In this document: positions 8,989 through 64,000 of the stretch, in pieces | How positions within the stretch are numbered: position 1 is the stretch's first letter | Layout of the letters: every line of letters starts with the position of its first letter | Assembly: GCF_000293805.1 (NCBI RefSeq) | Contig: NZ_AMBZ01000006.1 | Coordinates: 248,001-312,000 of the forward strand | Reading direction: 5' to 3' | DNA: 64,000 nt | Origin: Paenibacillus alvei DSM 29 | GTDB taxonomy: Bacteria; Bacillota; Bacilli; Paenibacillales; Paenibacillaceae | The notes under the pieces: generated by a model | The model's input: only the letters and a program-made list of their open reading frames with translations | The model's database searches: none | Told to the model about the DNA's origin: nothing | Made by a program: the position numbers and the translations under genes

Positions 8989-9144
8989 TGGATTCCCTTT
9001 CCTTCTCTCATGAGTAGTAGGTTCATGTATAAGGCAGAAAAAGCAACGCTCGCTTTGATTGTAATACTGTTTCCATAAATGTTCAATTTCTCATTTGAAA
9101 AAACATACATTTAATTTTTTATTATTAACGATATAATAGATTTG

Positions 9145-37544: not shown

Positions 37545-38741
37545 TTACTCCATTGTCTGTTCTTTGGTATTTTCATTCAATCTTAATCTCTGCTTGAAGG
37601 AGTGAATGATCTGTGCAATCGCTCCGTCTCCTGTCACATTAGCAGCTGTTCCGAAGCTGTCTTGTGCAATATAGAGCGCGATAGCCAGACTGATCATTGC
37701 TTCGTTGAAGCCAAGCATCGATTGAAACAATCCGACAGCCGCCATCACGCCCCCACCTGGCACACTTGGTGCCGCAATCATGGATATGCCTAACATGAAA
37801 ATGAATGGCAGCATCGTGCTTACTGACAATGATGCCCCGTTAATATACATGATCGCACTGGCTACTGAAGTAATTGTTACGGTAGAGCCGGTAATATGAA
37901 TTGTAGCGCACAGCGGCACTACAAAGTTCGATACCTCTTCATCAGTGCCTAGCTTTTTCACTTGAGACATTGTCACAGGAATCGTCGCTGCTGATGATTG
38001 CGTACCTAGTGCGGTAAAATACGCTGGAAGCATCGTACGCAGCATCGAGATTGGGTTGCGCTTGTTTAAAATTCCCGCAATTGTGTACTGTCCGATTATG
38101 ACAACAAAATGAAGAATTAAGATCATAATAAATACTTTCAAGAATACTTGCAAGATGAAGGCAACCTCTCCAGCCTGCGTCATGTTCATAAAAATACCCG
38201 CAATATGAAACGGAAGCATCGGAATCAAAATCGTATGAATTACCTTGCCTATAATCTCTTTAAACTCCAGCGAAGCCGTAAGCAGCACATTGGTTTTTAA
38301 AATTGTAATACCGACGCCAATGACGAACGATAACAGCAGCGCAGTCATAATATCGAATGCAGGCGGCATATCCAGTTTGAAAAAGCTCTTTAGCAGCATC
38401 TCTTCTGGATTGTTGGCTCTAAGTCCGGATGCTCCTGAGAGCAGCCACGGAAATGATGTTTTCGATACTACGTAAGCGAGTATGCCTGACAAAACCGTCG
38501 ATACATAAACGATTAACGCCGTAATACCGAGCAGCTTGCCCGCCCCGCGTCCCAACTCACCTATGCCAGGGATAATAAAGCCAAGAATGATTAACGGTAT
38601 GAGAAAGCTCAGAAATTGCCCGAATATATGATTAAACGTAGCAAATATGCGTATAAACCAATCTGGCATAATAAACCCCGCGCCAATTCCGAGCAGGATC
38701 GCAATAACAATGCGCGGAAATAATCCTAATTTTTTCATCAT
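37545..38741 (-). CDS. dicarboxylate/amino acid:cation symporter (DAACS family)
   Basis: 398-residue Na+- or H+-coupled symporter of the glutamate/aspartate/serine carrier family. The serine-rich re-entrant loop reads GTQSSAATIPVTM; the conserved helix-7-like stretch has NxTG-type residues (PLCATIHITGSTVTITS); the substrate site motif is NVTGDGA near the C-terminus. Eight membrane helices and two hairpins can be traced. Substrate within the family (dicarboxylate, Glu, Ser/Thr) is open. AAGGAG precedes ATGATG; either ATG may start. Confidence 0.9.
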   Translation of the reverse strand: MMKKLGLFPRIVIAILLGIGAGFIMPDWFIRIFATFNHIFGQFLSFLIPLIILGFIIPGIGELGRGAGKLLGITALIVYVSTVLSGILAYVVSKTSFPWLLSGASGLRANNPEEMLLKSFFKLDMPPAFDIMTALLLSFVIGVGITILKTNVLLTASLEFKEIIGKVIHTILIPMLPFHIAGIFMNMTQAGEVAFILQVFLKVFIMILILHFVVIIGQYTIAGILNKRNPISMLRTMLPAYFTALGTQSSAATIPVTMSQVKKLGTDEEVSNFVVPLCATIHITGSTVTITSVASAIMYINGASLSVSTMLPFIFMLGISMIAAPSVPGGGVMAAVGLFQSMLGFNEAMISLAIALYIAQDSFGTAANVTGDGAIAQIIHSFKQRLRLNENTKEQTME

Positions 38742-59792: not shown

Positions 59793-60425
59793 TTATTCCA
59801 TTTTCATCGCGTTCACAACCAATCTCCATTGCTTTACCAACTGCTCCATCTTATCACCTGCACCTGTAATTTCCCCCATTCGGGCAGCTTGCCCTGCCCA
59901 TAACGACATATATTGAGGATCACTGTTACGTGCGGCTGCCTGTCTAACACTCCTCGTCAACTCATTCATAATTGGATATGCTGGAATGGAAGCTAAACAC
60001 GACTCCAATCTATGAATTAGTTCATTGCGTATACCTCTGGCAGGTTTGCCTGAAATGGTTTTCGTAATAACTGTACTGCGTTCGTCAGAAGAACAAATCG
60101 CTTCTTGATAGGCAGGATGTACGCCGCTTTCCTTGCACAGTAGGAATGCACTACCTAATTGGGCTGCTTGTGCTCCGAGAGCCATAACAGCAGCAATCCC
60201 CCGCCCGTCCATGATCCCACCTGCAGCAATAACAGGTGTTGCTACATGATCGACGATTAGCGGCACTAACGCTAATGTCCCAACTAAGGAAGAATGGGGA
60301 TCCCCCGCAAATGTCCCACGATGGCCCCCTGCCTCACTGCCCTGTGCCACAATCATATCAACTCCTGCAGCTTCAAGACTAACCGCTTCTTCAACATGGG
60401 TTGCCGTCCCTATTAAAACAATGTG
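59793..60425 (-). pseudogene. nitronate monooxygenase, 3' remnant disrupted by the prophage
   Basis: C-terminal about 210 residues of a nitronate monooxygenase/2-nitropropane dioxygenase (FMN TIM barrel): VLIGTATHVEEAVSLEAAGVD, AQGSEAGGHRGTF (phosphate/FMN site with the catalytic His-type segment) and PVIAAGGIMDGRGIAAVMALGA. The N-terminal about 140 residues are absent: upstream of codon 60425 or so the frame runs into unrelated prophage sequence (FSRFFFVPYIFVIYS). The missing part may lie beyond the prophage's right end, outside the window. As it stands it cannot make a functional enzyme. Confidence 0.85.
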
Positions 60426-60469: not shown

Positions 60470-60585
60470 ACCGAGAAAACGTGGGAAACACCGATATGAC
60501 TAGGGATTAGGTGGGATTGAATCAAAATAAGTGTGACAGAGATGATGAGTATAGAAAAAATCGGTCAGATAGTGTGAAAAAAATC

Positions 60586-60633
60586 AAAAAAAGCGCGGAA
60601 GCCTTGCTCCACAAAGGTTGTCGGCGTTTTTTT
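60586..60633 (-). terminator. probable terminator of the prophage repressor transcript
   Basis: Imperfect long stem pairing the blocks GCGCGGAAGCCTT and AAGGTTGTCGGCGT, flanked by A7 and T7. It can end leftward transcription from the repressor; a rightward role is also possible. Confidence 0.55.
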
Positions 60634-60845
60634 GTGTTGTATCGCAATTAATACCACAGACAGGATGCTATAACCGGGTATGTAACGTTATAACGAGCGT
60701 TACTTATTCGTTATTCAGTGTTACGTCAGGTGTGATAAAATCGCGAAAACCTATTGCGGCAAGGCTTCGGAGATTAACGATGGGATTGTTCTCGCGTTAT
60801 TGGAAATCAAAATGACGACCAAAAATAACAAAAATAGCTTGTGGA

Positions 60846-60856
60846 GCAAAGGGACA
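60846..60856 (+). repeat. GGGACA-type end repeat, copy 2 (partial)
   Basis: GCAAAGGGACA, identical to 60941-60951. An inverted GTGTCCC follows at about 60889-60895. Confidence 0.5.
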
Positions 60857-60943
60857 TTCTGGACAAAATTAATAAAACGTGTCCCATTGAAGTCGTGGCG
60901 CGGATTAGAGTGATTTTTGTACTACGAAAATTATTAATAAGCA

Positions 60944-60958
60944 AAGGGACAAAAAAGA
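60944..60958 (+). repeat. GGGACA-type end repeat, copy 3
   Basis: AAGGGACAAAAAAGA, identical over 15 bases to 60455-60469. It sits just downstream of the repressor gene's stop codon. The 500 bases 60492-60991 hold no gene. Confidence 0.6.
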
Positions 60959-60991
60959 TAGAAAAATCTATCTATCATTTAGGGCGAAAAA

Positions 60992-61450
60992 TTAAGCCAG
61001 CTTAGCTGCTGCCTCTTCTCTTCCGTCTCCATTCGTCAAGGTTTGTGATTTCAGTTGTTTACTGGAGCTGACAGATTTCTTTCCTGTCAGTTCTAGTAAA
61101 ACCTCGATGCGTTCTTCCAGTTTCCACTTTTCTTTTTGCCCCAGTTGATGAAACTTAGCCAACAGATCAATATCTTCAGATGAAATACTACAAGCACTCT
61201 GCTGAGAACTTAGGTTTTCATTTGTGGTAATCCCTTCACCCGTAAGAAGCCATTCCATAGGTACAGATAAGAATTTTGCGAGTTGATATAACTCTGTTGT
61301 ATTCGGGAGCCTTTTTCCATTGACGTAATTGCTCATTGTGGTCTTTGAAAAGCCTGTTGCGCTGTATACATCTTTTTGAGTGAGCTTCAATTCTTTCATC
61401 CTTAGAGTGATTCTTTCTCCAACTCCTGTAAAAGTAAGGTTTTCTTTCAA
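60992..61450 (-). CDS. XRE family phage repressor (CI-like)
   Basis: 152 residues. N-terminal Cro/C1 helix-turn-helix (about 11-66; LTQKDVYSATGFSKTTMSN, then VNGKRLP). The remaining half is acidic to basic and helical (EKWKLEERIEVLLELTGK), a probable dimerisation region, without a LexA/CI-type peptidase motif. GGAGGTG lies before the start. Transcribed leftward, divergent from the early genes across a region rich in dyads; expected to keep the prophage silent. Confidence 0.85.
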   Translation of the reverse strand: MKENLTFTGVGERITLRMKELKLTQKDVYSATGFSKTTMSNYVNGKRLPNTTELYQLAKFLSVPMEWLLTGEGITTNENLSSQQSACSISSEDIDLLAKFHQLGQKEKWKLEERIEVLLELTGKKSVSSSKQLKSQTLTNGDGREEAAAKLA

Positions 61451-61478
61451 GGTAACGCACCTCCTATTAGTTAAACAA

Positions 61479-61589
61479 ATGAGAATATCTCAGGCATTAA
61501 TTACCTCGAATGAGGAAATAATCATTGACATAGTTCACAATTGTGGTAATATGATAGATAGATAGAAAATCCTATCAAAAGATTACCAC
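61479..61589. promoter_or_regulatory. prophage early promoter and operator region
   Basis: Rightward promoter TTGACA (61525-61530), 16-base spacer, TAATAT (61547-61552). Dyads in and around it: TGAGA-ATA-TCTCA (61479-61491), CCTC-GAAT-GAGG (61504-61515), CACAATTGTG in the spacer, and GTGGTAAT (61543-61550) paired with ATTACCAC (61582-61589). These are the likely operators for the divergent repressor. Confidence 0.6.
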
Positions 61590-61628
61590 ACATTACGAGT
61601 CGAAAACAGACGAAAACTCTGGAAGTTA

Positions 61629-62008
61629 AAACTAAATATGCAAGACCATATCTCCCAGTCTACGATTGAGGGAATCAGCACAATAGTGCCTTTGGATGAA
61701 GTCGAAACTGAATATGCAATGCCATACCCCTCAGTTCACGATTGAGGGAATCGGCACAATAGTGCCTTTGGATGAAGTCGAAACTGAATATGCAATGCCA
61801 TACCCCTCAGTTCACGATTGAGGGAATCGGCACAATAGTGCCTTTGGATGAAGTCAAAACTGAATATGCAATGCCATATCCCTCGGTTCACGATTGAGGG
61901 AATCGGCACAATAGTGCCTTTGAATGAAGTCACAACTAAATATGCAAGACCATATCTCTCAGTTCACGATTGAGGGAATTAGCACAATAGTGCCTTTAGA
62001 TGAAGTCA
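61629..62008. repeat. five tandem copies of a 76-bp repeat
   Basis: Copies start at 61629, 61705, 61781, 61857 and 61933; a sixth is cut after about 12 bases (from 62009). Copies 2 and 3 are nearly identical; 1 and 5 resemble each other. Each holds the dyad GCAC-AATA-GTGC (61678, 61754, 61830, 61906, 61982), and most hold a CCCTCA-N9-TGAGGG-type inverted repeat. 76 is not a multiple of three, so this is not a protein repeat. It lies between the early promoter and the first early gene. Confidence 0.95.
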
Positions 62009-62065
62009 AAACTGAATATACAAAGATATGTGGATTTACATTTTACGAGGAAAGGAGGAAAAAAC

Positions 62066-62383
62066 TTGAGTACAAGATTAAGCAATACGTTAAAGGAGCA
62101 GATGGAATCCACAAATTTGATTGCACGTGAACTACTAGGAAATGTGAATTTTGATGCCACTGGAAATGAAGTCATTGTAACCGCGGCACAAGAGAGCGCC
62201 CTCGACACTTATGGAGACATGTTGGAAGCTCATGAACATGAACTTATTGAACAATTGCATCGTGTCGTGGTGGAGTACAGTGCAAAAATTGCTGCTAATC
62301 GTAATCTGCAACGCTTAATCGGTCGAGAAGTTGGTAGACGTGAAGTTCTCAGAGAACGAATTGAAGCAGGTGAAGACATATGA
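62066..62383 (+). CDS. small prophage protein of unknown function (105 residues)
   Basis: TTG start preceded by AAAGGAGG with seven bases of spacing. The frame reaches back into the repeats, but no better start exists there. Acidic, strongly helical (MLEAHEHELIEQLHRVVVEYSAKIAANRNLQRLIG); no recognised domain. Its stop overlaps the next gene's ATG (ATGA), so both are translated together as the first early genes. Confidence 0.7.
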   Translation: MSTRLSNTLKEQMESTNLIARELLGNVNFDATGNEVIVTAAQESALDTYGDMLEAHEHELIEQLHRVVVEYSAKIAANRNLQRLIGREVGRREVLRERIEAGEDI

Positions 62384-62592
62384 AGAAACGACAACTATCG
62401 CCACTCGGCGTCATCATCAAAACTAGACTCATGGAAATGGGGAAAACGCAGTATCAGCTTGCTTGCGAAATTGGAACAAGCAGTAATTATATCTACCTGA
62501 TCTTGGTTGGGGAGCGTTCAGGGAAAACGTACATACCGAAAATTGCCGAAGCTCTCGGAATGGATTCCCATGAGCTCAGTCGAACAGCCTAG
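62380..62592 (+). CDS. small XRE/Cro-like DNA-binding protein
   Basis: 70 residues made almost wholly of a Cro/C1-type helix-turn-helix: IIKTRLMEMGKTQYQLACEIG, SSNYIYLILVGERSG, IPKIAEALGMDSHEL. ATG overlaps the stop of the preceding gene by four bases. In its position, directly behind the early promoter and opposite the repressor, it is a good candidate for a Cro-type antagonist or early regulator. Confidence 0.82.
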   Translation: MKKRQLSPLGVIIKTRLMEMGKTQYQLACEIGTSSNYIYLILVGERSGKTYIPKIAEALGMDSHELSRTA

Positions 62593-62637
62593 AGTTATTT
62601 ATGGAGAAACGCAGACATACAAGGAGGATATTACTCG

Positions 62638-62709
62638 ATGGGGTTGATAAAACAACAAGAGAGCGTCCCACCCTTCCACGGTAGACGCCCTCATTTAATC
62701 CCATTATGA
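62638..62709 (+). other. 23-codon frame with internal hairpin before the transposase gene
   Basis: AAGGAGG precedes an ATG that opens MGLIKQQESVPPFHGRRPHL and stops at 62709. Inside lies a GAGAGCGTC / GACGCCCTC stem (62659-62667 and 62683-62691). It may be a leader peptide with an attenuator-like hairpin, or only a terminator with a chance frame. Confidence 0.35.
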
Positions 62710-62764
62710 ACATTAACTCCTTCATTGTAGCATGAACGCGTTCGCTTGGGAAGGAGGAACAAAC

Positions 62765-64000
62765 TTGTCGGAAATATACATCACCCTACAAGAAGCTGCC
62801 GGATTTGAAGGCATGAGCTACGAAGCAATCAAGAAAAAAGCACAGCGATCTCCAGAAGCATTCAATGCTAAGAAGGAAGCCACGGAGAATGGTGGTAAAG
62901 AACGTGTACTTGTTGCCCTGTCTACGCTTAGCAAGAAGGCCCAACAAGCATATAAGCATGTCATAGGTATTGACGGAGCAGATATGGTCATCAATGAACA
63001 TGTTAATGAAAAAGAAATTCCGTGGTACGTCGATGTCGATCCTGCCCAGTACATTGATAAATATAGCAATTCATATTATGAGGCGGTTGAGTTAACGAAG
63101 GTTATTCGTGAGTTTTTAAATTACAGCGACCGTGATCGTACTGAATTCGCTGCTAATATTGCTGAAGCAAACGGCATGAGTCAACGAACTCTTTACCGGC
63201 ATTCCCAAAGCTATTTAGAAGCGAGTGCTTGGGCGCTAAAGATGAGCAAACAAGATGGAAAGGACTATGACTTTTTTAAGGTGCTGGCGCTCTGTCGAAA
63301 GCCCAAACAGAAGCATACTTTTCCTTCGCTTACACCCGAGGTAAGAGCATTCATAGAAAACCTGTGGTTTGAACCAGTATTCGCAAGTAACAACGGAACG
63401 ATTGAAATGTTATACGGAAAACTCATGAAGATAGGATCAATGAACTGTTGGGACATCCCATCATACCCAACAGTTGCTCGATATATTGGATATTTGATGG
63501 ATGTGAAGCGCGGCAAAAATGCCCGGTTACTAGCTGGAAAAGGGATGCGTGAATTCAAAAATCAGCGAATGGTAAAAGCGTCACGCAACATTAAGGCATT
63601 GCCGGTTATGGGGCTTGTACAAGGTGACGAGCATACATTCGATGTTTGGGTGAAGTATACCTACCCGAACGGAAAATCCAAGGCGATTCGTCCTCAACTC
63701 GTTGCCTGGCTCGATACCCGCAGCCGCTGCATCGTTGGTGACGTCATTTGTGTCAAAGCGAACTCGCAAGTCTTGAAGCAATCATTACTGAACATGATTT
63801 ATGGAGAAATTGGCGGCGTTCCTGAATGGTTGTTAATTGATAATGGGAAAGATTACACGGCTGAAGCAATGACCGGACGCAAACGTAATGAGCGCGTCAG
63901 CTTTGACAGTGAAACGAAAGGCTTCTACCGTAGCATCGGCATCAAGGATGACATGCGAAGCCTCCCATATCAGCCTTGGTCGAAGGCACAAATTGAACGT
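62765..64000 (+). CDS. MuA-type DDE transposase, 3' end outside the window
   Basis: TTG start after GGAAGGAGG. At least 412 residues are visible. N-terminal helix-turn-helix-like part (ITLQEAAGFEGMSYEAIKKKAQ), as in MuA-type DNA-binding domains; a middle region with IAEANGMSQRTLYRHSQSYLE; then the integrase core. D293 in HTFDVWVKY and D359 in LLIDNGKDYTAE are 66 residues apart, very close to MuA (D269, D336). The catalytic Glu would be in or just after the last residues seen (LPYQPWSKAQIER). Performs the cut-and-join steps of phage transposition. A MuB-type ATPase gene is expected next. Confidence 0.9.
   Translation, partial: MSEIYITLQEAAGFEGMSYEAIKKKAQRSPEAFNAKKEATENGGKERVLVALSTLSKKAQQAYKHVIGIDGADMVINEHVNEKEIPWYVDVDPAQYIDKYSNSYYEAVELTKVIREFLNYSDRDRTEFAANIAEANGMSQRTLYRHSQSYLEASAWALKMSKQDGKDYDFFKVLALCRKPKQKHTFPSLTPEVRAFIENLWFEPVFASNNGTIEMLYGKLMKIGSMNCWDIPSYPTVARYIGYLMDVKRGKNARLLAGKGMREFKNQRMVKASRNIKALPVMGLVQGDEHTFDVWVKYTYPNGKSKAIRPQLVAWLDTRSRCIVGDVICVKANSQVLKQSLLNMIYGEIGGVPEWLLIDNGKDYTAEAMTGRKRNERVSFDSETKGFYRSIGIKDDMRSLPYQPWSKAQIER

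Follow-up and report, generated by a model that had tools for sequence, protein, structure and literature searches.

A tandem array of 76-bp units with operator-like sequences in the early leader of a Mu-like prophage of Paenibacillus alvei

A repeat array between the early promoter and the first early gene

The early leader of a Mu-like prophage in Paenibacillus alvei DSM 29 contains a tandem array of five 76-bp units. Each unit carries a sequence resembling O3, a putative operator located in the predicted early promoter of the same prophage, and the array is absent from related prophages with similar flanking sequences. We tentatively propose that the array consists of amplified variant sites for the phage repressor or Cro protein that would reinforce repression, perhaps as a roadblock. 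This reading is drawn from sequence comparison and we hold it with limited confidence; a neutral expansion of the repeat ranks close behind it.

Coordinates refer to the window, the 64,000-nucleotide stretch of DNA that was analysed, which lies within contig C10 of a 6.83 Mb genome assembled in 25 contigs (related loci are given L-numbers and genomes G-numbers). On an extended version of the contig, the prophage spans about 60420 to 91606, with both ends placed by eye, and a nitronate monooxygenase gene seems to be interrupted by it: the minus-strand sequence at 59793–60491 matches the Pfam NMO profile from position 130 on, corresponding to the C-terminal part, and the minus-strand sequence at 91584–92150 was named by eye as the N-terminal part. 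Scripted candidates for a 5-bp target duplication at these by-eye ends were unconvincing.

From left to right, this ∼31-kb prophage presents a repressor gene (60992–61450, minus strand; matching HTH_19/HTH_3 and phage repressor PHROGs), a control region, the early promoter, the array, a first early gene (62066–62383, plus strand), a Cro/Ner-like gene (62380–62592, plus strand; phrog_1468, transcriptional repressor) and a Mu-type transposase gene (62765–64000, plus strand, continuing past the end of the window; DDE_2). The transposase is of the MuA-type DDE class expected of a Mu-type prophage (PF02914, E 8.7e-9; phrog_310, E 2.8e-55). The first early gene, which matches no Pfam or PHROG entry and has similar DNA in L008–L011, starts at a TTG codon at 62066 behind AAAGGAGG, as read from the sequence. 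Among transposase relatives with a named host, the closest come from Paenibacillus sp. 2.1 (G008), a member of the same genus as the window genome. That genome contains seven matches to the window transposase, one of them with stop codons (loci L008–L013 and L016), and carries a further similar early leader, L066.

The initial annotation of this DNA had described five 76-bp tandem repeats with conserved dyads, situated inside the presumed early transcript and 5' of its first gene, and this description was borne out. Tandem Repeats Finder reported an array at 61622–62023 with a period of 76, 5.3 copies, 91% matches, no indels and a score of 636. The whole array was delimited as 61622–62028 (plus strand), comprising five full units (61622–61697, 61698–61773, 61774–61849, 61850–61925 and 61926–62001) and a partial sixth copy from 62002 to about 62028, the end of which was set by eye. 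The array lies between the predicted promoter (61525–61552) and the gene at 62066. Units 2 and 3 are identical in sequence, 4 to 11 differences separate the remaining pairs, and 16 of the 76 alignment columns are variable. The copy number comes from a single assembly of 25 contigs, in which identical units may have been collapsed.

Each unit contains a dyad that we refer to as the second, GCACAATAGTGC (61678–61689 in unit 1; 61754–61765, 61830–61841, 61906–61917 and 61982–61993 in units 2 to 5), which is invariant in all five and is followed by CTTT. The GCAC-AATA-GTGC motif, previously noted as conserved, is present in every unit. The inverted repeat CCCTCA-N9-TGAGGG had been described as kept or weakened by single changes: units 2 and 3 carry it without change, an A-to-G substitution in unit 4 and a C-to-T substitution in unit 5 preserve pairing as G-U, and unit 1 has a single C-A mismatch. 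The alternative CGATT/AATCG pairing attributed to some copies is limited to units 2–4, with unit 1 reading AATCA and unit 5 AATTA. Two other interpretations of the repeats were considered. A coding array was rejected, since the 76-bp period is not divisible by 3 and, judged by eye, substitutions show no bias in the open frame. The other was a putative CsrA-type GGA sponge; units 4 and 5 lack the GGA that follows the second dyad.

Operator candidates at the early promoter

The predicted early promoter (61525–61552, plus strand) matches the consensus as TTGACA-16-TAATAT with a TG before the second hexamer. A promoter scan returned three promoter-like sites versus 4.1 in shuffled sequence, so the support for this promoter is its conserved place in relatives, ten of which have a comparable one. 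Three plus-strand operator candidates were placed around it at centre spacings of 31 and 31 bp: O1 (61469–61488, centre 61478), a weak candidate proposed from core geometry and the 31-bp spacing only; O2 (61500–61519, centre 61509), from a dyad and the 31-bp spacing; and O3 (61531–61550, centre 61540; TAGTTCACAATTGTGGTAAT), in the promoter spacer. O1 and O2 each match O3 at fewer than 11 of 16 positions. The dyad of O3 pairs at five of eight positions and is not above chance; its putative status as an operator comes from a position that it has in common with relatives, most of which show clear dyads.

For that comparison, early promoters were located in 11 prophages, that of the window and ten relatives. 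No promoter match was obtained in L018 or L066, and L010, nearly a duplicate of L009, was excluded. In ten of the 11, the centre of the best dyad falls 14–16 bases into the promoter (at 7 in L013), and the window O3 lies at that same offset. When each dyad was compared with 2000 random places, six of the 11 proved rare (12–31 places as good), four were intermediate (115–241) and that of the window was ordinary (814). A further copy matching at least 11/16 sits 29–32 bp upstream in seven of the 11 prophages, the window not being among them, and no other 4-bp bin between −120 and −20 comes near this number (mean 0.69). Copies of at least 11/16 also occur 62–63 bp upstream in three of the 11, with L009 and L063 showing both spacings. 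The comparison thus supports a predicted operator arrangement overlapping the early promoter in this prophage family. Single operator-like matches also appear downstream of the promoter in L011, L012, L061 and L065 (11–12/16), indicating that isolated matches mean little. A search for closer repressor relatives to define the operator motif returned none in viral contigs and a best match elsewhere of 47% identity (295 genomes). Within Paenibacillus sp. 2.1, the motifs of L008, L009, L011, L012 and L013 differ from one another, as if these prophages were of different immunity.

O3-like sites within the repeat units

Sequence likeness to O3 was found on the plus strand of every unit, at 61656–61675 (14/20), 61732–61751 (16/20), 61808–61827 (16/20), 61884–61903 (15/20) and 61960–61979 (16/20). 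The site reads CAGTTCACGATTGAGGGAAT in units 2, 3 and 5, and its orientation is the same in all five. Outside the array, a match of 16/20 to O3 was reached by one 20-mer among 128,000 positions, at 38090. When the 110-bp control region was compared with the unit, equal likeness was seen in one of 407 other stretches of the window and in eight of 1000 shuffles. Under a half-site model built from O1–O3, the units rank 17th to 99th of 63,980 positions. Operators of ten other phages score 9–11/16 in the array, and the window's own scores 13.

A broader search over 112 kb found seven places, besides O3 and the array, that match some phase of the unit at 16–17/20. At up to four mismatches, the same 112 kb contained eight matches within the prophage (O3, the five units, one in the repressor gene and one at 84658) and three outside it. 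The match within the repressor gene, at 61214–61231, is an O3-like sequence with three mismatches to the combined pattern.

The columns covering the O3-like site and the second dyad are less variable than the rest of the unit (3 of 34 versus 13 of 42, p 0.024, for columns chosen after the sites had been seen). Low variation in a freely chosen block was not significant (506 of 5000).

These data bear on two readings. The suggestion in the initial annotation that the array could be a multi-site operator gains moderate support from the O3-like sequence in each unit, and is weakened by O3 itself being a poor dyad. That weakness slightly lowered our confidence in an operator array and slightly raised it for a neutral tandem expansion, in which slippage or unequal recombination acted on an untranslated leader tolerant of length changes; the likeness to O3 would then be chance or an inert relic. 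The scarcity of equal likeness among the window stretches and shuffles speaks against such an expansion, as does the reduced variation over the operator-like columns, with the qualification given above.

Distribution among genomes and related prophages

The neutral alternative is favoured by the distribution of the array. At an E threshold of 0.01, a 447-bp query matched eight of 394 genomes of the family: the own genome (3.6e-234) and seven others through stretches of only 21–28 bases (E 0.003–0.005), leaving one strong array match, to the own genome. Among 147 relatives the array again matched the own genome only. The exact core pattern had no match among IMG/VR contigs, nor did 60600–64000 among GenBank phages (own-genome records were possibly excluded in both searches). 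A literature search, with subscription papers mostly outside its scope, found no report of such an array.

Tandem repeat scans of 22 related loci (L008–L023 and L061–L066) found no 76-bp array; five of the 22 could not be judged (L016 is truncated within the leader, the sequences of L017 and L023 begin past it, and little upstream sequence is available for L021 and L022). The viral contig L017 is identical to the window over the compared stretch and begins at the equivalent of 62066, directly past the array. Related prophages share the flanks of the window without the array: in L009–L011 the leader match stops at 61644 and resumes at 62049 after only 26 bases, and L008 has 213 bases between the equivalents of 61614 and 62049, versus 434 in the window.

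Occurrence in one genome, the identity of units 2 and 3 (a sign of recent duplication), the differing lengths of relatives' leaders, some with a duplicated element (see below), and the weak dyad of O3 all fit a neutral expansion, and we regard it as similarly tentative to, and just behind, the operator array. Two further points count against the operator array: no relative that we read carries such an array, and a 76-bp period does not correspond to an integral number of helical turns.

A boxA-like element at the position of the array in relatives

At the position of the array, relatives carry TGCTCTTTGAAAACTAAATAAGCAAG or a close form of it (L008–L011 and L061–L066, of which L066 is a biased case, having been found through the boxA-like pattern itself). 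L018 has a boxA-like copy after its Cro-like gene; none was seen by eye in L012 and L013, and L016 is cut in the leader. The element lies at 9072 and 9228 in L008, 9228 in L009 and L011, 4113 in L018, 2644 in L061, 2533 in L062 and 2618 in L063, and is in reverse complement in L064, L065 and L066. Two copies are present in L008, L061 and L066, spaced 156, 77 and 152 bp apart, respectively (the first L061 copy is degenerate). The relatives' element resembles the boxA of host 16S-23S spacers (TGTACCTTGAAAACTGAATCGCG in G001, TGATCCTTGAAAACTGGATAACG in G188). A similar sequence, CTTTGACAACTGAATA, occurs about 90 bases before the tmRNA gene (1608–1972) in L039 and L042, at 1497–1516, from two genomes of the genus.

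The 5' part of unit 1, GAAGTTAAAACTAAATATGCAA (61622–61643, plus strand), aligns with the 3' half of this element, and a version of the segment stands at the start of every unit. With a model of the boxA 3' half, the six window copies rank 1, 1, 6, 7, 26 and 26 of 127,976 places. A functional boxA in the array was an attractive idea once the relatives' leaders had been aligned, and was rejected with the full model: the intact core (TGCTCTTTGAAAAC in relatives) is missing, and the window leader scores −8 bits at best, whereas members left out in turn reach 25–33 bits, host rrn sequences 17 and 22, and tmRNA leaders 12 and 23. The array thus occupies the boxA position, keeping the 3' half only, and is not itself a boxA array. 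A relationship between the entire unit and the leaders of relatives was likewise rejected as weak or absent, with 15–223 of 300 shuffles as good (L008 16, L011 15, L063 15, L062 48, L066 109, L065 160, L064 163 and L061 223).

RNA structure and transcription signals

The units could instead derive from a boxA-plus-hairpin module of the family and act as RNA, for example through nut- or put-like antitermination or protection of a long untranslated leader. The aligned position of the relatives' element, its resemblance to the host spacer and pre-tmRNA boxA sequences, and the high ranks of the 3' half at unit starts are in keeping with this idea. So is the folding of the whole leader RNA, which is better than that of all 100 shuffles (z −3.2), and the behaviour of the first stem, in which three pairs vary one-sidedly yet still pair on the sense strand (one unit has a mismatch). 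The second stem has its outer pair open in two of four units. On the other side stand the failure of the full boxA model, the weak whole-unit likeness to the eight relatives' leaders, the lack of any compensatory change in the unit stems, and the z scores of the four distinct units on the sense strand (−0.3, −2.4, −2.6 and −1.9), one of which folds no better than its shuffles. Two units folded as the minus strand gave −1.8 and −0.3. Folding and variation decide for neither an RNA nor a DNA role, and on the whole evidence we consider an RNA element rather unlikely.

The repeated hairpins and the CTTT after the second dyad could also suggest a series of weak terminators or a tandem source of small RNAs, as raised in the initial annotation. 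We found little to sustain either. Consensus scans placed no terminator-like or promoter-like site inside the array, the sole terminator-like site lying outside it at 62674–62660 on the minus strand, and 60500–63000 had no Rfam match up to E 5. These readings appear extremely improbable.

A separate observation concerns a candidate antisense RNA upstream of the transposase gene (62632–62752, minus strand), found at the same place in L008, L009, L011–L013, L018, L019 and L061–L065. An extended −10 sequence on the minus strand, TGNTANAAT, is present in 12 of 13 phages (L012 has TGCTATAGT), and is followed by a hairpin and, in most, a T-run. In 11 aligned sequences, four of the nine stem pairs change on both sides with pairing kept, and the covariation score of 0.43 compares with 0.25 in shuffles, none of 500 being as high. 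The consensus scan alone did not place this candidate above chance, and no Rfam match was found in the region 60500–63000.

Comparison with known systems and a possible role for the array

The early control region of phage Mu contains the operators O1–O3. The window phage resembles it in its Mu-type transposase, divergent repressor gene, Cro/Ner-like gene and operator-like sites around the early promoter, and differs in having five more operator-like sites downstream, in a regular 76-bp array, for which an enhancer role is only putative. One report on Mu presents the operator region as an operator/enhancer (O/E) (PMC3820752). By analogy with this double function and with the internal activation sequence of Mu, the array, situated some 1.2 kb inside the estimated left end, might be an enhancer of transposition bound by the N-terminal domain of the transposase. 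Relatives with 82–89% identical transposases lack the array, however, and the best 20-base match of a unit to the prophage end regions is 13/20, a level that most random stretches reach. We consider such an enhancer very unlikely.

The L5-type stoperators of cluster A mycobacteriophages are described in another report as 13-base asymmetric monomer sites throughout the genome (PMC9283540). The window sites are similar as proposed repressor sites of one orientation, downstream of a promoter, that could stop elongation. They differ in being imperfect dyads clustered in one array; besides these and O3, the only prophage matches at up to four mismatches are those in the repressor gene (61214) and at 84658, and dispersed, genome-wide stoperators were rejected from that 112-kb scan. 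Compared with nut sites and rrn boxA leaders, the likeness lies in the boxA-like element of relatives at this place and in the 3' half and hairpins kept by the window units, and the difference in the missing boxA core.

We return to the operator array as the reading that we tentatively prefer. The array would represent variant operator sites, amplified in tandem within the early leader at 125 to 429 bp downstream of O3, for one of the phage's own DNA-binding regulators, with the repressor (60992–61450) and the Cro/Ner-like protein (62380–62592) as candidates. Binding of the regulator to the units might block RNA polymerase or raise the local repressor concentration, and tighter repression in the lysogen would be the result. 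The array may have grown by unequal recombination or slippage after an ancestral boxA-like segment was disrupted. A more specific version, that the leader was turned into a five-fold variant-operator array serving as a clustered transcription roadblock or stoperator array, possibly also as a transposition enhancer, in place of the boxA-type leader control of relatives, seems unlikely to us as a whole.

Two elements of this phage family came to light through the comparison, a boxA-like sequence in early leaders and, ahead of the transposase gene, a conserved candidate antisense RNA. If the units bind repressor, a Gram-positive Mu-like phage would possess a compact natural array of operators on the downstream side of a promoter, and one phage would have exchanged control by leader RNA (boxA) for control by protein-DNA contacts at a single location. 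The stopping of elongation by repressor arrays would then become testable beyond the mycobacteriophages.
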